Of a stretch of DNA of 64,000 bases, positions 22,074 through 37,930 are shown piece by piece. Made by a program: the position numbers and the translations under genes. The notes under the pieces are model-generated. The model did not search any database. It saw nothing but the letters and a program-made list of their open reading frames with translations, and was not told the origin of the DNA. The stretch's first letter is position 1. Each line of letters starts with the position of its first letter. Source of the DNA: Oscillatoria sp. CS-180 (GTDB lineage Bacteria; Cyanobacteriota; Cyanobacteriia; Phormidesmidales; Phormidesmidaceae); NCBI RefSeq assembly GCF_028330965.1, contig NZ_JAQMUB010000087.1, positions 1-64,000 of the forward strand. Reading direction: 5' to 3'.

Positions 22074-22343
22074 ATGAACACTAAGCTGATCGATTCTCTA
22101 ATTCACATCATTCAATCCCTTACCGTTGAAGAGCGTCAGGCCCTAGAGGCTGAACTTCTCAATGCAAATTCTGCACCAATGCACACTGCAGAAGCTGACC
22201 AACTCCCTGACTTGAATAGTGAACCTGTGTTGCAAGGTTCTAAAGCCTCGGACCTCCTGCGATTTGCTGGTACCTGGACCGGCAATGACTTCGAAGAATG
22301 CTTAGAACTCGTTCATGAAACCCGTTCTAAGGCTGAGTTTTAA
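22074..22343 (+). CDS. Putative VapB-type antitoxin partner of the following PIN toxin
   Basis: The 89-residue protein begins MNTKLIDSLIHIIQSLTVEERQALEAELL, a helical segment common in cyanobacterial antitoxins, and ends with LLRFAGTWTGNDFEECLELVHETRSKAEF, the type of tail that occupies a PIN active-site groove. Its stop overlaps the next start as TAATG, the tight coupling expected of a type II toxin-antitoxin operon. The role is inferred from position and size. Confidence 0.75.
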   Translation: MNTKLIDSLIHIIQSLTVEERQALEAELLNANSAPMHTAEADQLPDLNSEPVLQGSKASDLLRFAGTWTGNDFEECLELVHETRSKAEF

Positions 22344-22795
22344 TGGTATATCTCCTTGATACCAATCATTGCAGCCGCATCATTAATGGTGATACCACTC
22401 TAATCGACCGTCTACAGCAGAATGCTAATGTCGGTGTGTCTACCAGCGTTATCGTTCGAGGTGAACTTATCTTCATGGCTCAAAATTCTCAACAGCGAGC
22501 TAGTAATCTTCAGCGAGTTCAAGCCTTTCTTACAGCCATTGACCTGTATCCAATAAATAAGAGCATCGGCGATCGCTACGGCGAACTCAAGGCTAAGCTC
22601 TACGAACAATTTGCCCCTAAAAAGCGCGATCAACGCCGACGCACCAAAATTCAAGACCTCGGCTTCGATGACAATGATCTTTGGATAGCCGCTACAGCCC
22701 TTGCGTATAATCTCACCGTAGTTTCTGCAGACAGCGATTTTTCCCGCATTCAACAGGTACAACCTTTGCAATTAGAAACTTGGTTTTCCCCTTGA
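22343..22795 (+). CDS. vapC: VapC-like PIN-domain ribonuclease toxin
   Basis: The 150-residue PIN domain has all four acidic positions: Asp in LLDTNHCSRI (about 6), Glu in VIVRGELIF (about 35), Asp in FDDNDLWIAATAL (about 113) and Asp in VVSADSDFSRI (about 131). Members are Mg-dependent RNases that cut specific tRNAs or rRNA when free of antitoxin. Translationally coupled to the gene upstream. The reading frame is intact, so this pair is probably functional, in contrast to its neighbours. Confidence 0.88.
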   Translation: MVYLLDTNHCSRIINGDTTLIDRLQQNANVGVSTSVIVRGELIFMAQNSQQRASNLQRVQAFLTAIDLYPINKSIGDRYGELKAKLYEQFAPKKRDQRRRTKIQDLGFDDNDLWIAATALAYNLTVVSADSDFSRIQQVQPLQLETWFSP

Positions 22796-23884: not shown

Positions 23885-24190
23885 CTAGTTTTGCATCTCC
23901 GCGGCAGAGTGAGTGAAGGTTAACTCTAGACGCTTTGCTTCCGCAGCTTGCATGGCCAAATCAGTCTCTACCTCGGTTTTGTTGGCGTGGTAGTAAGTAA
24001 GAGCTGCATAAGCTTCTGCAAGCGTTAAATTCCCGATGCGATCGCAGATTTCCTCTGCATTCAACCCTCGCTTGTACCAGGCAACAATGCGACGCACGGT
24101 AATGCCTTTACTTGCAATATGGGGACTCCCGCCATGTAGGCCAGGTGTACGTGTAACCAGTGTGCCGATGTCAATTGATGCGATCGTCAT
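23885..24190 (-). CDS. DUF433-family protein (VapB-like antitoxin), intact copy
   Basis: The 101-residue protein has the DUF433 core GLHGGSPHIASKGITVRRIVAWYKRGLNAEE (written here as landmarks GGSPHIASKGITVRRIV and YKRGLNAEEI), a winged-helix-like DNA-binding fold found in antitoxins that pair with PIN-like DUF5615 toxins. No toxin frame follows; the next 125 bases are degenerate. Two decayed paralogues lie at 21455 and 22913, so this is the surviving member of a local family. It is 68 bases downstream of the STAND gene on the same strand. Confidence 0.82.
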   Translation of the reverse strand: MTIASIDIGTLVTRTPGLHGGSPHIASKGITVRRIVAWYKRGLNAEEICDRIGNLTLAEAYAALTYYHANKTEVETDLAMQAAEAKRLELTFTHSAAEMQN

Positions 24191-24258: not shown

Positions 24259-27200
24259 TTACTCATTCTCTATTGCACCAAGAGACTTCAAGGTATTTTT
24301 GACAGTTTCAGTCAAACCTTTTGTTCCAGTAATATTCATTTCTTGATATGGTTTGATACGCTTCAAAGTCCTAATACAAGAACCATCTCGAATATTCCAT
24401 ATCTTAATTAATCCGTTTTCATCAGCACTAATAATCTTATCTCCTTTAGCATTAAATTGAATTGAACGAATAGATGAAAGATGGCCCTCGAATGTTGCTA
24501 AACATTTTCCATTCTTGCTGTTCCACATCTTCACTAGACAATCATCACTACCAGTTACAAGAATCTGACCATCATTGTTAAAATTGACTTTTTTGATCTG
24601 GGCACTATGACCTTGAAAGGTTTGTGTACAATCACCAGTACCAATATTCCAAATTCTTGCGATATAGTCATCGCTAGCGGCTGCAAAAGAACTACCGCTT
24701 GGATGTAGTGAAAAAGATCGGATCCAATTCGAATTGCCTTTAACTGTCCTTAAACATTCCCAGGATTCGCAATCCCATATTCTTAGAACAAAATCTTCGC
24801 TGGTGCTAAAAAGCAACTTTGAAGTCGAAGCAAATCTTACTGTCTTGATCTGCCCCATATGCCCATACAGTGTTCTGATGCAGTCTCCAGTATTGAAATC
24901 CCATATTTTGACTGTTTCATCTTCACTTCCCGTAGCCAGAATCTTGTCCGTGCATGAAAAATTCAGTGTATTTACGACATCATTATGACCATGTAGTGTT
25001 CTTATGCACTTTTTAGTTTCGATATTCCATATTTTAGTCGTGTGATCAGAGCTCCCGCTAGCGAGAAACTTACCATCACGAGTAAAATCGATAGAAAGTA
25101 TCGGATTGGCATGTCCACTTAAGCGATATACGCTACTTTCTTTGCATATGTTCCACAGTTCTATGTCGTAGTTTTGCAAAGGAAAAGTTTGAGAACTAAC
25201 TGCTATTGTTTGTCCGTCTGGACTTGGTTTTATCGCCTCAATCCAATCTATATGACTCTGGAGTATATCTATACATTTTCCTTCGTAAACATCCCAAAGT
25301 CGGATTGAATTGTCTTGACTGCCACTAGCTAAGATACGATTTTCAGTATGAAAACTTATAGATTGCACCCAAGTAGTATGTCCCTTTAAAAGTCGAAAGC
25401 ATTGTTCTGATTCGATATTCCATACCCTGACTATAGAGTCACTACCTGCGCTAGCGAAAAGATTTCCATCTCTACTAAAATCAACTGAATTGATCTGCCC
25501 TTTATGCCCAGTAAAAGTTCGAATGCATTCTCCCGTAGATATATCCCATAGTTTCGCAGTACCATCTTGACTACCACTAACGAGCAAATTCTTGTAGGGA
25601 TGAAAGTCAATTGATTTTACCCAATTCTTATGGCCAGATAGTTTCTTTAATATGTTTCCAGTTTGAAAATTCCAGAGAATGACCGTGTAATCATCTCCAC
25701 TGCTAGCGATGATGTTTCCATCCTTACTAAAAGTTGCAGAACGCATGTATCCAAAAGTGCCTAAGGATAACTTTCTGAGGCATTCACCAGTTTCGATATT
25801 CCAGAGTGCTAAAGTGTGATCCTCACTTCCGCTAGCAAGAATTTTTCCGTCAGGACTGAAAGATACAGAGCGTACTGGTCTGTCATGCCCTTTCAATATC
25901 GTAATGCAATTGTCTTCAAGCAAAACCCTGTTCGAAATATCCCAGAGTTTAATGCTTCTATCATAGCTTCCAGTTGCAAGAAGCCTACTATCAGGACTAA
26001 ATGCAACTGCTCGAACAAGATCTGCATGACCTGAATGACTTGTAAGTTTTCGAGCATCGCTGTCCCAAAGGCAAATTTCTCCGTTCAAATGACCCGTTGC
26101 CAACAAAGAACTATCTACATTAAATGTGACTGAGAATACAGCACCAAAAGATTGAGCAAAATTGTTGCGGCTAAAAGTTGCATAAGAAAAATTGGTTTCC
26201 CTCAAGATAGCGCGAGTGAAGTCGCCACCAACAATAATAGTCCTGCTCAAATCTAATTTGGCTAAAGCTGCATGGTTAAATCTTAAGAGAAGCGTTGCGG
26301 CATTACCGGCAATGCTTCTAACTTCTGAAATAGACTGATTGCGAGTATTTAGAATTAGATGTAGTAGTTTTTTTTGAATTGACTCCTTCAAATCCAACAT
26401 TGGCAAAATAAGTTCGATTACTGCCTTTTCTAAAACTTCCTTTCCGAATGTGCTGTTCAAGTTGACGTGATCTTTGAAGTATGCCAAATCAGCCATTTCG
26501 GAAAAGTCAGGTGCGAGAATGTCTAGTTCAGCAGCAAATTTGTAAGCAACAAAAAACTCAAGTAAAGATCGGTGGGCTGGGGTGTAGTCGCCTTCGGCGT
26601 TGCGGATGAGCATGGTTTGGCCCATCATGTCGTAGTGCCAGTGATCGAGGTCTTTTTGTTCTTCCACGGCGGGGCCGAATAGCTTGCGGATGCGATCGGG
26701 GAATTCGCGATAGTTGATGCTCATACGATCGCTGCTCAGCATTTCCCAGGACAGCTCACACATAAAATAGAGCTTGTCGGCCATTGAGGTGAAGGTGCGT
26801 TCGGCTTTGATGTCGCGCTCCATTTTGTGGCGGACGGCGTAGAGGTAGACGCGGGACATGTCTACGGGTTTGCCAGCTTCGATGTCGGGAAGGGCTTCTA
26901 GGATTAACTCTGTAAGGACGGGGCGGCGGGCCAGGTCAAGCAGCTCGGGATTGCCCATGATTTGCTCGACGGTGGCGGGTTGGGCTTGGTGGGAAAGGAC
27001 TTGATGAATCTGCTCGTCGTCGAATTTTTCTAGCTCCAGCACTTCAAACTGAGGGGTTTCTCCAGTCAAGTCCTTCGTGGAGGCTTGCAGTTCGGCGTTA
27101 AGCAAAGCACGGCCTTCTTTGGCTTCGGGGAAGTGTTCGGTGCGGCAGGTGAGGATGACTTTGGCTCCGGGCACGACGACCTTTGCCAGTTCCCAGAAGT

Positions 27201-28617
27201 TGTTGATCATCTGCTGGCGATCGACCCGAGCCGCCATTTCGTCAAAGCCATCGAAGATCAGCAGCAGCTTACCCATACGATTGAGCTGTTCAAATGCTGA
27301 ATAGCCGGGAATGGGAATCTCATGCTTGCGGAAAAAGAACTCGGAGAACAGAGACTCGACGCTGACGGCTTTGGCGTAGTCTCGTAGGGGCACGACGAGG
27401 GGCAGTCGCGGACGCTCTAAGCCTCGCTGCTGGGCTTCGCGATACCGCTGTAGGGCTTGCCAAGCATAGTGGAAGGCGAACCAGGTTTTGCCCGTGCCAA
27501 ATTCGCCCAGCACCGAGATGTGCTCTTTGGCCGGATCGTCGAGCCAGAGGTCAATGTAGCCGTCTATCCAGCCGTCGCGATCGCCATAACGACTCACCCC
27601 AATCCGCTGCCGCGTATCCGGATCAATCTCATCTTTGAGGCAGGCCAGGGGCACGTATTTCTGGTCAATCCCTCGCTTTTGAATTTCCGCCTCCAACCAG
27701 GTGAGGTAGCCGCTGAAGTCAGCATCCTGGTCGAGCAATTCATCTAGGGTGTAGCAGCCCAAGCCGTCATTGTCCGCTTTTTCTACCTCATCGCGGGCGG
27801 CTCGGCTAATGCGACGGGCAGTGACGAGCCAGCCTTCATCCGTTTGGTGTGTCTCAACGGATGCCTTCAGGTCTTCCACATCGCTCAAGCCCGCTTCGCC
27901 ATCGATACCGCGCACCAGGATGCGATCGTATCGCCCCCGGCGAATTGGAATGTTGATAATCCACTCAAAGTGGTCATCCTGCCAAACGTCATGAGATTCA
28001 AAGCGAAAGCCTAGGGTCTCAAACCAGCCGCGTATTTGTTGTGCTAGTGCAAAGGCTTTGCACTGCTCGGCGCTGAAGGGTTCGGTTGCTGCTGCTCCAG
28101 GCAGGGCGGCATAGTCTTGAGCGGCCAGCCGCGCCATTTCAGTCCGCATCCCCTCAATAGTCGGCAGGCGATTCAGACGCTCTTGCAGACTGCCGATTTG
28201 CCGATGCATGGAGTCCAGCTTTTGCTCAGCCAAAATTTCAGCGGGGGTGCGGGTGCGTTTGGCCACTTCGATAAAAACGGCGGCAAAGGCGTAGAACTCC
28301 CGTCGAACATCAACATTATTGGCTTGGAGATCGGACTGGAGGGGGTGACTGGCGAGAAAATCTTCGCCGTTCTTCAGCAAAATCGAGGGGGTGTTGCGGT
28401 CTAGGGCTTCGCGAAAAAGGGCTTGAATTGGGGTTTGGCGAAAGATTTCGAGCACAGGACGGGGTTTGCCGACGCCGTATTCCACCAAGGCGTATTGATA
28501 TACCCCGATAAAATCCTTGGGGGGATGGTCAGGATCGAGGTTGAGCCGTTTGAGGAGCTGAATGACGCGCTCGTTGCGATTGATGCTCTCCATAGCAGTC
28601 TCAAAGAGCAGATTCAT
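24259..28617 (-). CDS. STAND NTPase: nuclease-like domain, NACHT, pentapeptide segment and 14 WD40 repeats
   Basis: About 1,450 residues. The N-terminal helical domain (about 1-135) is followed by a region with RGRYDRILVRGIDGEAGLSD and EGWLVTARRISRAARDEV (about 190-290), resembling a restriction-endonuclease-like domain. The NACHT module has Walker A GEFGTGKT (about 371-378) and Walker B LLLIFDGFDEMA (about 451-462), then a winged-helix region ending in PAHRSLLEFF. A short pentapeptide stretch (LDLSRTIIVGGDFTRA) precedes 14 WD40 repeats, enough for two seven-bladed propellers. The C-terminus (YQEMNITGTKGLTE) is a common tail of cyanobacterial WD40-STAND proteins. Such proteins act as ATP-switched sensors in antiphage defence or cell death. 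Starts at 28653 (GTG) and 28593 are alternatives. Confidence 0.88.
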   Translation of the reverse strand: MNLLFETAMESINRNERVIQLLKRLNLDPDHPPKDFIGVYQYALVEYGVGKPRPVLEIFRQTPIQALFREALDRNTPSILLKNGEDFLASHPLQSDLQANNVDVRREFYAFAAVFIEVAKRTRTPAEILAEQKLDSMHRQIGSLQERLNRLPTIEGMRTEMARLAAQDYAALPGAAATEPFSAEQCKAFALAQQIRGWFETLGFRFESHDVWQDDHFEWIINIPIRRGRYDRILVRGIDGEAGLSDVEDLKASVETHQTDEGWLVTARRISRAARDEVEKADNDGLGCYTLDELLDQDADFSGYLTWLEAEIQKRGIDQKYVPLACLKDEIDPDTRQRIGVSRYGDRDGWIDGYIDLWLDDPAKEHISVLGEFGTGKTWFAFHYAWQALQRYREAQQRGLERPRLPLVVPLRDYAKAVSVESLFSEFFFRKHEIPIPGYSAFEQLNRMGKLLLIFDGFDEMAARVDRQQMINNFWELAKVVVPGAKVILTCRTEHFPEAKEGRALLNAELQASTKDLTGETPQFEVLELEKFDDEQIHQVLSHQAQPATVEQIMGNPELLDLARRPVLTELILEALPDIEAGKPVDMSRVYLYAVRHKMERDIKAERTFTSMADKLYFMCELSWEMLSSDRMSINYREFPDRIRKLFGPAVEEQKDLDHWHYDMMGQTMLIRNAEGDYTPAHRSLLEFFVAYKFAAELDILAPDFSEMADLAYFKDHVNLNSTFGKEVLEKAVIELILPMLDLKESIQKKLLHLILNTRNQSISEVRSIAGNAATLLLRFNHAALAKLDLSRTIIVGGDFTRAILRETNFSYATFSRNNFAQSFGAVFSVTFNVDSSLLATGHLNGEICLWDSDARKLTSHSGHADLVRAVAFSPDSRLLATGSYDRSIKLWDISNRVLLEDNCITILKGHDRPVRSVSFSPDGKILASGSEDHTLALWNIETGECLRKLSLGTFGYMRSATFSKDGNIIASSGDDYTVILWNFQTGNILKKLSGHKNWVKSIDFHPYKNLLVSGSQDGTAKLWDISTGECIRTFTGHKGQINSVDFSRDGNLFASAGSDSIVRVWNIESEQCFRLLKGHTTWVQSISFHTENRILASGSQDNSIRLWDVYEGKCIDILQSHIDWIEAIKPSPDGQTIAVSSQTFPLQNYDIELWNICKESSVYRLSGHANPILSIDFTRDGKFLASGSSDHTTKIWNIETKKCIRTLHGHNDVVNTLNFSCTDKILATGSEDETVKIWDFNTGDCIRTLYGHMGQIKTVRFASTSKLLFSTSEDFVLRIWDCESWECLRTVKGNSNWIRSFSLHPSGSSFAAASDDYIARIWNIGTGDCTQTFQGHSAQIKKVNFNNDGQILVTGSDDCLVKMWNSKNGKCLATFEGHLSSIRSIQFNAKGDKIISADENGLIKIWNIRDGSCIRTLKRIKPYQEMNITGTKGLTETVKNTLKSLGAIENE

Positions 28618-28653
28618 CAGATTATCCAGACCAAACACAGGCTCTCTCCCCAC

Positions 28654-28973
28654 GCTTTTCTCTAGTGAAAGTCAGGTTGCTCAAAAATGCTCGAAATCTT
28701 ACAAATTGGTCAACAAAACCTCAATGAGACACCGACAGGTCTGATGTCAGTTAGTCCCTGATCCAGCACTATTCCGGGCATGGGAGCGTGAGGGCATGGG
28801 AGCGCAAGAGTGGCTGTCGTCCTATACAAAACACATAAAAACGTTAATACTGGTAACAGGAAGTTAACGGGCGTTTGTAAACAGTAGTGGGTGCTACTGC
28901 TGCGATCGCCTCACCAGCAAAAGGCCAAGATTCTTCTTAATGCTCCCTTCGGTGCCGTATCGCTAGTTGCCGC
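28654..28973. other. 320-base intergenic region with a 16-base tandem repeat
   Basis: Divergent interval between the STAND gene and a small membrane protein gene, so it should hold both promoters. Two direct repeats of about 16 bases (GGGCATGGGAGCGTGA and GGGCATGGGAGCGCAA) lie at 28776-28791 and 28792-28807. No gene was recognised. Confidence 0.5.
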
Positions 28974-35141: not shown

Positions 35142-36740
35142 TTACTTCATCGCGGCGAAATGCTCCAGCACCAGCCTGTGAATAAACCGATACCGTCCCC
35201 CCACCCGCTGCTGCAGCAACCGCTCGGTACAGTGATTCAGGAAACGAGCATAGTCCCAAGGAATAGCATTCGCGCGATGAAGCACAACACGTAAAGCAAA
35301 GTGCTGTACGAGACTATACCAGCCCGCCAGTCCGCCTCCGACCAGAAAGGCGAACGCAACTCCTTGGAGAAAGGCGATCTGTAGATCGAAGGTCCAGGCT
35401 TCAGGATTGAACCCATTCTCTGCCACTGAGTTGGCAAACTGGCTTCCCAAATTAACCAAAATTCCACCTGGGTAAGACAGTAGCGAGACAGGCACAATGT
35501 TTTTTGCGGCTTGAATGATGCCTTGATTAGGAGTGACTCGCGATGTAATGTCAGTCCTCAGCCCGCCAATCAGCCCAAAAATCAGCCCTAAAATCAGCCC
35601 GCCAATCAGCCCGTAAAACAATCGCTGACTGCGCGTAGCCAGCATCGTGGGCTGCATCTTCTCAATCAAAAACTCATCTTCTGATTGAGCCTGGAGCTGC
35701 TTAGCTAACCACACGAGCCAGTGCCGTGTTTGTCTGGCGGTGGGCTGTTGCCCCGGTGGGTATTCCCGGCTTTTAATCGTCTCGTGGAGACGCTGCTCTA
35801 CATAAGCATCCAGCAGGTAACTCATGCGGGCCTGGGTCGTCTGCTGTCGCTGCCATTGTTTCAAGTCAATGCCGTCTTTCGCCAAAATCGACACGCTCAG
35901 CAGCAGCGGGGTCCGCACCAGCTCCAGCAGCGCCGCGTCCCCGTTCAAAGAGGTCCACAGGCTCTCCGCTTTCAGGGAGCGTAAGTACGTCTCCAACTGC
36001 GAGTCAGTTAGCGGTTCCAGGCACACGGCTCCGTTTAGCGCCAGCTTGGTGGCATACAGCTCATACTCCTCCCGCCGACTGCACACCAGCAGGCGACTCG
36101 GCCCCTCCCCAGAAATCAGCCAATCGTTGATCGCCTGCACGACAGGCTCCTGTCGGGTTGCGGGCAGCTCGTCCAGGCCGTCCAGCAGGGGCAGCAGCGT
36201 TTTGGTTTGGAGCCAGGTTTGTCCTAGCTTGGGCGATACACCATACTTCTCCTTAAGTTCGCTGAGTAGCCAATCCGTAATGCTCTGGTTTGCCCGCTGC
36301 CACGACGACACATTAAACATCACCGGAATGGGGTGGTCTGGCTGGTCATTGGCCCGCTGAATCAGGACGGCAGCCAGGTCCAGCATTGTGGTGGTTTTGC
36401 CCGAGCCGGGATTCCCCAAGATCAGCAGCTTGCCGCCCACATCCGAGCGGTCAAAGATATCGGCAATGGAGGTGTTGGCGTCTAGCTTTCGTGTGCCCTG
36501 GTCAGGAATACGGAGTTCCCGGTCCCAGGGGCGGCTGACCTGACTGCACTGCTCCGTCATGCCCAGGCGAATCAAGATCGCATTGTGTAGCGACAGGCGT
36601 AGCCGATACACCACCTCCGTCCACACGGCATCGACCAAAATTCGCTCGTTGGCATCTGGGCGGTTGCTTTTAGGCTTGTTGTCCGGCAGGCCAAACTGAC
36701 CAGCATCCGTGGGTTCCGAAGCCTGATCGGTTGATGGCAC
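35142..36740 (-). CDS. NACHT-domain STAND ATPase with C-terminal membrane segments
   Basis: The 532-residue protein has Walker A GNPGSGKT (about 109-116), Walker B LLPLLDGLDEL (about 182-192) and SRREEYE, a sensor-1-like Arg region. A winged-helix-like part and glycine-rich hydrophobic segments (about 374-394 and 452-482) follow, and the protein ends YRFIHRLVLEHFA. It lacks WD40, TPR or LRR sensor repeats, so the membrane part is the likely C-terminal module. The start is GTG 36740; no ATG exists between it and the preceding in-frame stop near 36822. It follows, by 47 bases, a hydrolase carrying an effector-associated domain. The pair is likely an effector and its signalling ATPase; this is inference. 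Confidence 0.85.
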   Translation of the reverse strand: MPSTDQASEPTDAGQFGLPDNKPKSNRPDANERILVDAVWTEVVYRLRLSLHNAILIRLGMTEQCSQVSRPWDRELRIPDQGTRKLDANTSIADIFDRSDVGGKLLILGNPGSGKTTTMLDLAAVLIQRANDQPDHPIPVMFNVSSWQRANQSITDWLLSELKEKYGVSPKLGQTWLQTKTLLPLLDGLDELPATRQEPVVQAINDWLISGEGPSRLLVCSRREEYELYATKLALNGAVCLEPLTDSQLETYLRSLKAESLWTSLNGDAALLELVRTPLLLSVSILAKDGIDLKQWQRQQTTQARMSYLLDAYVEQRLHETIKSREYPPGQQPTARQTRHWLVWLAKQLQAQSEDEFLIEKMQPTMLATRSQRLFYGLIGGLILGLIFGLIGGLRTDITSRVTPNQGIIQAAKNIVPVSLLSYPGGILVNLGSQFANSVAENGFNPEAWTFDLQIAFLQGVAFAFLVGGGLAGWYSLVQHFALRVVLHRANAIPWDYARFLNHCTERLLQQRVGGRYRFIHRLVLEHFAAMK

Positions 36741-36787
36741 CGCAGCCTGCCCCTCCGACTTGGTGCCGGGTTCAGATGGAGGGGCAT

Positions 36788-37930
36788 CTAAGGGCGCTGG
36801 AGAAACTCCGAGAGAATGTCGTCAACCTGCTCCAGGGTGTAGCCAGAGGACGATCCTTCCACCCAATCCAAAAACTCGGAAACCCGTTTGCCTTGGGGCG
36901 CTTCTCTGCCGGAGAGGGTGCCAGCGGGCAAATTCAGGCCAAACAAAAGCTGTTCAAATTGCGGAGACGGCAGCCGCGCCAGGGTATCGAACAGTTCATC
37001 TCGAAAGCCTCGACTAGAGGCTGTTTTGAGGGTTTGTCCATTTGCTGTTGGTTCACCTGCTGCCTGCCCACTGATAGCCTGCGCTCCCTGCAAGAGGGTT
37101 TCTTCTAGAAAAATTGTGACGCTATTGTATATCAGACTATCGGCCTTCTTGTCTGGTGCGATTTTGCAGATGGTGATGTGGTCAGCATCGACTCCGACGG
37201 GTACCGCGCCTGGAATGCCGGGGTCAGCGCTGGTTTGATCCACCACTAGACCAATGGGCTTGTAGGGTCGAGTTTCAAAATAGACTTCGATGGGGATCTC
37301 TCGTAACCGGGGCTGGTTGCGGTAAACGTTGTTGAGTTCTCGCAGGCGAGCGTGATTGTCTTCCAGCTCTTCGACACTGACACTCAGGTTGAGCGCCCCT
37401 TGCAGCGTCCGATTGATGAACTGCATCCAGTTGGAGAGGTTCGCGCCGGAGTGGGGCGTTGCCAAAAAGACAATGCCTTGGGTGTTGTCAGCGATCGCCT
37501 TCCAGCGAGGATTGCCAAAATCCAACGCACTGCGGAGCATCTGTTTAACCACCAAACCGCCCATGCTGTGGGTAATAAACGCGATCGGCTTGCGACCGAT
37601 GCGTTTATTCGAGAGGACTTGCAGAATATTGTTGGCGCGATCGGCCAGGGGCATGGTGCCGCCCCGCCAAGCAGAGGGTTCAATGTCGTAATCCAAAGAC
37701 CAAATATTTAACTGAGGATAGTCCGTCCCTAACCAAGCTGGCCAAAAGTTGAGATCTTGCGGCGGCAGTTCGCCATTCTGAGCCTGCTTTAGCTTGCTGT
37801 TACGGGTATCGGTAGGGTCGGCATACCAAGTCCCCAAAGCGCTGCCGCCGAGACCATGCACAAAAATGACATCGCCCACAGGATTGGGGCTGTTGTTCTG
37901 TTGAATAGAAATGAGCTTGGGATCTGGCAT
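36788..37930 (-). CDS. SERAC1-like alpha/beta hydrolase with C-terminal effector-associated (death-like) domain
   Basis: 380 residues. The hydrolase domain (about 1-280) has the oxyanion-hole motif VIFVHGLGGS, the nucleophile elbow THSMGG (Ser about 122), a candidate Asp near 231 and a His in DADHITI (about 251), so the triad looks complete. Such SERAC1/PGAP1-like proteins are lipases or esterases. Residues about 309-378 (DELFDTLARLPSPQFEQLLF, SEFLDWVEG, LEQVDDILSEFL) match the pattern of small helical effector-associated/death-like domains that recruit effectors to STAND ATPases. The next gene encodes such a NACHT ATPase, so this is probably the effector. Cutting of membrane lipid on activation is a hypothesis. 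Confidence 0.85.
   Translation of the reverse strand: MPDPKLISIQQNNSPNPVGDVIFVHGLGGSALGTWYADPTDTRNSKLKQAQNGELPPQDLNFWPAWLGTDYPQLNIWSLDYDIEPSAWRGGTMPLADRANNILQVLSNKRIGRKPIAFITHSMGGLVVKQMLRSALDFGNPRWKAIADNTQGIVFLATPHSGANLSNWMQFINRTLQGALNLSVSVEELEDNHARLRELNNVYRNQPRLREIPIEVYFETRPYKPIGLVVDQTSADPGIPGAVPVGVDADHITICKIAPDKKADSLIYNSVTIFLEETLLQGAQAISGQAAGEPTANGQTLKTASSRGFRDELFDTLARLPSPQFEQLLFGLNLPAGTLSGREAPQGKRVSEFLDWVEGSSSGYTLEQVDDILSEFLQRP

Follow-up and report, generated by a model that had tools for sequence, protein, structure and literature searches.

Bacterial NACHT proteins have been reported to defend against phage (PMC12169576, cited here from part of its text), and in WRAP on a STAND ATPase the C-terminal blades form two separate seven-bladed propellers (PMC9218822, likewise in part). 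Here we describe a gene for a NACHT protein with a WD40 sensor in a 64,000-nucleotide (nt) stretch of Oscillatoria sp. CS-180 (contig NZ_JAQMUB010000087.1), which we call the window. The gene is a single intact open reading frame (ORF) of 1,464 amino acids (aa) at 24259..28653 on the minus strand, with a GTG start. To our knowledge, the ligands of bacterial NOD-like receptors (NLRs) with WD40 sensors, and the ways in which their specificity changes, are largely open. The gene probably encodes an NLR-type (STAND) switch in which a near-invariant half, composed of NNH5, a restriction endonuclease (REase)-like domain, and NACHT, is joined to an interchangeable sensor of 14 WD40 repeats. As alignments of relatives demonstrate, the whole sensor is replaced there as one block and in place, with borders at aa ~720 to 800 and usually before the C-terminal tail.

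Whole-block sensor replacement in relatives

Relatives were the best 80 of 215, ranked by core similarity; L052 was dropped for want of a core match. Exclusion of 25 of 88 relative ORFs as short, open-ended, or truncated left 64 full-length rows, the window protein and 63 others, and in 10 of the 25, WD40 matches lay in another stretch of frame past the point where the ORF ends. Mean pairwise identity among the 64 family members was 0.82 to 0.94 at aa 561 to 720 and dropped to 0.46 at aa 721. NACHT nt identity exceeded 0.85 in 164 of 2,016 pairs. Sensor nt identity was 0.55 to 0.70 in 53 of these (swap pairs) and above 0.80 in 111 (same-sensor pairs), with none from 0.70 to 0.80; among core-similar pairs, sensor identity is bimodal.

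The pair L104-L114 had a NACHT identity of 0.97 in nt, 0.98 in aa, and 0.84 at fourfold-degenerate sites (computed at sites of shared codon boxes). Its WD40 regions were 0.60/0.58 identical in nt and 0.54/0.49 in aa, and fourfold identity there was 0.32/0.28, about chance. The tail was 0.87 identical in nt, and the flanks aligned at 94% over 4.7 kb upstream and 93% over 1.9 kb downstream. The pair L105-L113 retained a WD40 fourfold identity of 0.83/0.90. The NACHT of L115 was closest to that of L144 (0.98) and its sensor to that of L111 (0.73/0.82), and the nearest relatives of core and sensor likewise differed for L089, L141, and L153. We counted a flank as alignable from 200 bp and 80% upward. 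By that measure, 31 of the 53 swap pairs had two alignable flanks and 41 had one or more; among the 111 same-sensor pairs, 75 had two. The 31 pairs with two alignable flanks indicate that the sensor was replaced in place. Depending on the pair, the 5′ breakpoint lay at aa ~720 or ~800, and the 3′ border usually fell just before the tail, which was 0.74 to 0.97 identical in nt across the swap pairs. No mosaic sensor was scored in any of the 2,016 pairs. An assembly artifact is unlikely as a general answer, because the titles of L099, L104, L115, and L147 carry no metagenome-assembled genome (MAG) label and L071 is a complete plasmid.

Discrete sensor types were also compared within one genus, in 24 genes with core identities of 92 to 100%. 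Sensor type A was present in 18, type B in 3, and the sensor was unreadable in 3. Both flanks of the B genes were alignable with those of 13/18 A genes for G467, 11/18 for G396, and 3/18 for G457; the downstream flank of the G457 gene aligned with 12/18, and a few A genes (e.g., G461) aligned with none of the B genes' flanks. Most, not all, A and B genes therefore appear to share one locus. The N-module DNA tree had 22 rows and stars on 3 of its 19 inner branches. B required three changes on it, at least two of them imposed by starred branches, and B as a single clade was rejected by the approximately unbiased (AU) test (p-AU 0.001). A DNA search of 61 genomes of the same family with the B sensor of L104 returned three near matches (82 to 100%) and three distant ones (64 to 65%), the latter adjoining a second core at 75 to 76% identity. 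It is close to an even call whether discrete sensor alleles pass from strain to strain as whole 14-repeat units and persist as a polymorphism across species, with switch and tail as the recombination arms; if so, this would be a prokaryotic counterpart of balanced immune-receptor polymorphism.

Several points weigh against sensor replacement in place. The drop in conservation at aa 721 is partly ascertainment, core similarity having been the basis for choosing relatives; the later tests compare the halves within pairs. Neither flank was alignable in 12 of the 53 swap pairs. The swap pairs are not independent, since L099 or L104 occurs in 26 of the 31 both-flank pairs (the remaining five are L071-L133, L115-L144, L115-L147, L144-L147, and L141-L146). 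The upstream flank of the G457 B gene differed from that of most A genes, with less than 1 kb upstream compared. Searches of plasmids and, at a strict limit, of 386 cyanobacterial genomes yielded no source outside the family for a swapped-in sensor; the sole match in those genomes was G396, which itself carries the same family.

Local silent cassettes of the vlsE/pilE type were rejected, since no WD40 match above 18 bits was found in the flanks of 64 loci (up to 6 kb, and short for some), and viral carriage was rejected because the viral contigs and phages searched held no relative. At L096 and L103, the C-terminal tail motif occurs again downstream of the gene, possibly as a scar formed by the left-over end of a replaced sensor. 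L142, on an Anaerolineales MAG contig, has a core 80% identical, another N terminus, and a different, shorter sensor half, and represents either transfer out of the cyanobacteria or mis-binning.

Domain architecture of the window gene

The features of the gene are as follows.

24259..28653, minus strand: whole gene, 1,464 aa, GTG start; alternative ATG at 28617
28243..28623, minus strand: NNH5 (PF22736), aa 11-137, helical, in the effector/adaptor slot (Pfam E 2e-45)
27730..28047, minus strand: NA-iREase1 (PF22722), aa 203-308, restriction endonuclease fold without ExK (Pfam E 1.2e-43)
26989..27519, minus strand: NACHT NTPase (profile match; Walker A GEFGTGKT at aa 383-390, LLLIFDGFDE at aa 463-472)
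26494..26988, minus strand: remaining C-terminal portion of the switch module, up to aa 720; contains HRSLLEFFVAYKF (aa 694-706) (pairwise identity)
26182..26493, minus strand: linker, aa 721-824, start of the exchanged block (identity cliff, GC step, synonymous switch, breakpoints of relatives)
25288..26181, minus strand: WD40 repeats 1-7, aa 825-1122, likely first propeller (repeat model, predicted structure, 2ymu match)
24391..25284, minus strand: WD40 repeats 8-14, aa 1124-1421, likely second propeller (same evidence)
24262..24342, minus strand: C-terminal tail, aa 1438-1464, including NITGTKGLTETVKNTLKSLGAIENE; in relatives, the conserved 3′ edge of the exchanged block

An earlier description made from the letters of the window (the sequence-only reading) placed a gene at 24259-28617. 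The gene is real, and its proposed end falls on codon 13, an internal ATG. We favor the GTG start, because the residues upstream of that ATG, GREPVFGLDNLM, recur in the homologue from G058. Directly 5′ of the GTG, at 28654-28720, 52 to 66 bp match several N-module relatives at 79 to 85%, unlike the flanks further out, and perhaps form a conserved promoter or leader. The architecture, the intact NTPase motifs, and the absence of a nuclease motif, detailed below, are evident from the sequence.

In the Pfam scan of the window protein (best 25 of 72 matches), NNH5 scored 154.5 bits and NA-iREase1 147.8 bits, each against a cutoff of 27 and both N-terminal to NACHT. A search with the NACHT profile (PF05729) scored 37.7 bits against a cutoff of 26.7 and confirmed the NACHT domain claimed earlier. 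Walker A and B were invariant or nearly so in the family, with G383, E384, K389, T390, D468, D471, and E472 of the two motifs invariant. Mean pairwise identity over aa 541-720 was 0.69 to 0.94 per 20-aa block; in the tail it was 0.72 at aa 1441-1460 (64 proteins). NOD2 and NLRP3 headed the VIA-align structural list for the NACHT part (Z 15 to 17). Apaf-1 has an NB-ARC NTPase, an N-terminal CARD, and 7 + 8 blades. The sequence-only reading's likeness to Apaf-1 holds in general shape and probably goes no further, given a NACHT NTPase with NOD2 and NLRP3 as top matches and a different blade number.

The restriction-endonuclease-like pattern noted earlier at residues 190-290 corresponds to NA-iREase1, and the suggested search against PD-(D/E)xK profiles matched Mrr_cat (26.4 bits versus a cutoff of 21). 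An AlphaFold2 (AF2) model of the domain has the order H-E-E-E-H-E-H-E, and its residues 199-312 matched 1y88 in VIA-align at Z 10.7; this entry, titled "unknown function," is presumably an REase-like fold. The N-module model was of moderate quality (predicted local distance difference test [pLDDT], 64.7), and NNH5 is all-helical in it. A PDB sequence search with the REase-like domain gave one match (E 0.23), and the best 50 VIA-align matches included no active Mrr enzyme, which is not evidence of absence.

Active PD-(D/E)xK nucleases carry [D/E]...[E/Q]xK catalytic residues, and Mrr nucleases [EQ]xK. In 32 sequences, window included, the [E/Q]xK motif was absent: the expected strand at aa 241-250 reads RYDRILVRGI and has no conserved K. 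R244 and G249 were invariant there, R248 was nearly so, and E230, on the preceding strand, was invariant. Pfam labels the NA-iREase1 family inactive. A nuclease effector, as the sequence-only reading had it, was rejected on the absence of this motif; the inactive Pfam family and the retention of the domain beside NACHT when the N terminus differs also oppose it. NA-iREase1 was retained before NACHT in nine relatives with another N terminus (L074, L077, L142, L154, L171, L181, L184, L185, and L186), which places the domain in the switch core and NNH5 in the effector/adaptor slot. That slot held a caspase in L074, DUF4062 plus a subthreshold TIR match in L142, EAD4 in L154, and a segment matching HATPase_c_4 in L184; four of eight relatives' N-terminal segments scanned gave no Pfam match. 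Relatives' ORFs were taken stop to stop, and true starts may differ. Of the proposed effector-switch-sensor layout, the REase-like fold, NACHT, and 14 WD40 repeats stand, and the effector slot belongs to NNH5, not to a nuclease.

Fourteen WD motifs, the number given earlier, were found again on recounting, Pfam WD40 matched 14 stretches, and a hidden Markov model built from the window's own repeats found 14 units at aa 825-1421. Among 65 proteins (the window's and those of 64 relatives whose ORFs are closed at the 3′ end and extend over 700 aa past NACHT), 60 had 14 repeats, 3 had 13, and 2 had 12; fourteen repeats is a family property. The proposed structure modeling, carried out for the sensor half, gave all-beta repeats (AF2 pLDDT 88.1); its best PDB match in Foldseek was 2ymu, "a highly repetitive propeller structure," and Apaf-1 chains ranked 18 and 26. 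In the model, the 14 repeats likely fit two seven-bladed propellers. The window's repeats are diverged, with an intrarepeat nt identity of mean 0.47 and maximum 0.60, unlike the near-identical repeats of WRAP and fungal NWD proteins, and no tandem repeats were found in the gene; recent blade amplification in it was rejected on these grounds.

Within type A, raw per-codon counts (not dN/dS) gave a nonsynonymous-to-synonymous difference ratio of 1.26 and 1.72 in the two WD40 halves versus 0.21 in NACHT. The test of top-face variability, at positions that we take to be those of the fungal NWD work, was mixed, with p <0.02 in three of six sensor groups and no significance in three. Together, the WD40 ratio and the top-face change fit a recognition surface and are no proof of one. 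In L073, on Annamia plasmid pANN4383.01, a break after repeat 7 divides the array, and 7 further repeats lie in a downstream frame; the break thus falls between the two likely propellers. NB-ARC-annotated proteins in plasmid records H15, H17, and H20 align to 97 to 100% of the window's sensor half at 36 to 37% identity, which suggests a sensor type common to NACHT and NB-ARC switches.

Elsewhere in the window, at 35145-37930 on the minus strand, a 532-aa NACHT protein and a PGAP1/DUF676-type alpha/beta hydrolase are neighbors in the same orientation and may form a two-gene STAND system in which the hydrolase is the separate effector. A PIN-domain protein (22343-22792, plus) and a DUF433 protein (23888-24190, minus) lie near the receptor gene; such proteins are often parts of toxin-antitoxin pairs.

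Histories of the two halves of the window gene

Near 26500, the GC content of the window gene drops from ~0.55 to 0.39, and GC content at third codon positions (GC3) falls from 0.61-0.67 to 0.31-0.36 across the break. The genome carries a paralogue, L051 (C92:150.5-154.8 kb), with NNH5, iREase, NACHT, and 14 WD40 repeats and a like GC3 step (0.65 to 0.41). The WD40 gene L060 on C7 shows the same kind of step, and L054-L058, five further NACHT-WD40 genes from this genome, have no step and stay near 0.5. On C77, an orphan array (L053, 1094-3154) has at least 13 WD40 matches, a receptor-like tail, a GC3 of 0.27 to 0.37 in its longer ORF, and one in-frame TGA in the array, with no NACHT match on C77; it is probably a relic of a sensor half.

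The closest sensor relative of the window gene was that of G058, at 76% aa identity, with other matches listed at 40% or less (63 genomes, own included; at most 17 candidates scored per genome). Between window and G058, NACHT was 96% identical in aa with a fourfold identity of only 0.39, the sensor 76% with 0.63, and the linker had a fourfold identity of 0.74. In larger blocks, fourfold identity was 0.42 for aa 1-720 (n = 287) and rose to 0.65 for aa 735-1464 (n = 218), switching at aa ~720; unrelated sensors were mostly near 0.3. The sensor tree joined window and G058 (100/100). The N-module DNA tree joined the window with L078 (96/98) and rejected window plus G058 (p-AU 0.0005); the linkers of L078 and the window gene share only 37% identity. 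Among the rows compared, the window-G058 sensor pair looks younger, by silent sites, than any N-module pair of the window.

Separate histories of the two halves face counterevidence. In 58 of 63 relatives, GC3 was lower beyond NACHT than before its end; the GC step alone is thus no proof of recent import, and a one-off AT-rich import as its whole cause was rejected. The N-module protein tree (15 rows, without L078) did not reject window plus G058 (p-AU 0.083), and the window row was flagged for odd base composition in the N-module DNA tree. Even the nearest N-module rows reached a fourfold identity of only 0.46 to 0.49, little above the 0.42 of G058, and silent sites are deeply diverged in all N-modules of this group. 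The window gene's tail is diverged from those of L080 and L081 (window-L080, 0.45 to 0.67). Its flanks were not syntenic with five congeneric genomes, where no orthologous locus was found, and comparison with L080, L081, and G058 gave no match beyond one 111-bp stretch. With no orthologous locus, in-place exchange is demonstrated for relatives only. For the window gene, the trees and silent sites suggest that its halves had separate histories, from which we infer an exchange.

Proposed function, rival explanations, and known systems

The window gene may act as a phage-defense receptor, a role to which its weak NCBIfam match to antiphage EruA and its structural matches to Avs4 and NLRs point indirectly. 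A PADLOC search, at E up to 0.01, gave two matches only, HEAT-ARM_XIII at aa 839-997, inside the WD40 half, and mad8 at aa 368-406 (E 0.007). The two propellers would capture a ligand, which could be a protein of a phage or other invader or a cell component perturbed by the invader. Capture would free NACHT to bind ATP and oligomerize, and the clustered NNH5 domains would set off, or call in, a response that is toxic or leads to cell death. Exchange would proceed by homologous recombination with DNA of other strains through the conserved DNA on both sides of the sensor, giving a new specificity while the switch is kept as it is.

The exchange could be real and the receptor work within filaments, in recognition of kin or self or in stress-induced death, rather than in phage defense, which we consider unlikely yet worth weighing. 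Many host genera of the relatives are presumably filamentous, which counts toward this view. So do the fungal WD40 NLRs HET-D and HET-E, which act in self/non-self recognition (PMC12222747, in part); the phage defense reported for bacterial NACHT proteins (PMC12169576, in part) counts against it.

Hidden paralogy, in which ancient copies with different sensors had their NACHT halves homogenized by gene conversion and were then differentially lost, is improbable. The second core in several genomes of the A/B genus and the divergent upstream flank of the G457 B gene would suit it, but no WD40 array lay in the flanks, up to 6 kb, compared for the 64 loci, both flanks aligned in 31/53 swap pairs, B is scattered on the core tree, and paralogy would still require recombination at the same border. 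New sensors might instead arise by in-place amplification of one blade, as in highly repetitive propellers (PMC9218822, in part) and fungal NWD proteins. High internal repeat identity in B-type sensors (mean 0.75 in L099, 0.73 in L104) and a repeat pair above 0.9 in 8 of 64 proteins favor such an origin, but 11 swap pairs had no cross-sensor blade match above 0.75 (mean best, 0.60 to 0.66), on which comparison amplification was rejected as the source of swapped sensors, and the diverged window repeats do not fit it; we regard it as very improbable. Faster divergence of the sensor half by point mutation under diversifying selection, without recombination, has next to no plausibility: the raw type-A ratio is 6- to 8-fold that of NACHT, but saturation of synonymous sites is confined to swapped sensors while NACHT stays similar, flanks align in most swap pairs, the identity distribution has a gap, and sensors match better across NACHT clades.

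Block exchange of the sensor onto a conserved switch can be set against the known systems. EruA (NF058535, NCBIfam) is a NACHT antiphage protein that the window protein matches weakly at aa 464-709 (E 6e-5; 21.4 bits versus a cutoff of 1,000) and to whose family it does not belong. Avs4 has an active nuclease and a TPR sensor. It and other antiviral STANDs share with the window protein an REase-like domain adjoining the STAND NTPase, and Avs4/NLR structures were matched by Foldseek and VIA-align; the window protein differs in lacking the nuclease motif and in having a WD40 sensor. WRAP blades are nearly identical, and we take 2ymu to be the WRAP propeller of a cyanobacterial STAND protein. The WRAP protein resembles ours in its STAND ATPase with two separate seven-bladed propellers (PMC9218822, in part) and in supplying the top Foldseek match of the sensor; unlike it, the window gene has diverged blades, and in relatives the whole block is exchanged. 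Fungal HNWD/NWD proteins (HET-E, HET-D) are likewise WD40 double-propeller NLRs with a conserved switch and a variable sensor (PMC12222747, PMC4986451; both in part). Concerted evolution keeps their repeats at high identity, and repeats are shuffled, whereas here all 14 repeats behave as a unit.

Replacement of a sensor in place was not described for any bacterial NACHT gene in the open-access titles and starts of abstracts searched, a scope that leaves subscription papers and preprints outside, and the portions consulted of PMC8195603, PMC10907252, PMC9218822, PMC12222747, PMC4986451, PMC13236601, and PMC7159879 hold no description of it for a bacterial NLR sensor. NACHT sensors diversified by diversity-generating retroelements (DGRs) in multicellular bacteria also join NACHT to a diversified C-terminal sensor (PMC10907252, in part). 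There, reverse transcription hypermutates a CLec domain, whereas here a whole WD40 block is replaced. The relatives form a natural domain-swap series, with the same switch, often the same flanks, and different complete sensors; such receptor variants could aid the search for each sensor's target, and a comparison of A and B would separate sensing from signaling. Exchange of complete sensors would thus be a route of diversification distinct both from DGR hypermutation and from blade-by-blade concerted evolution.

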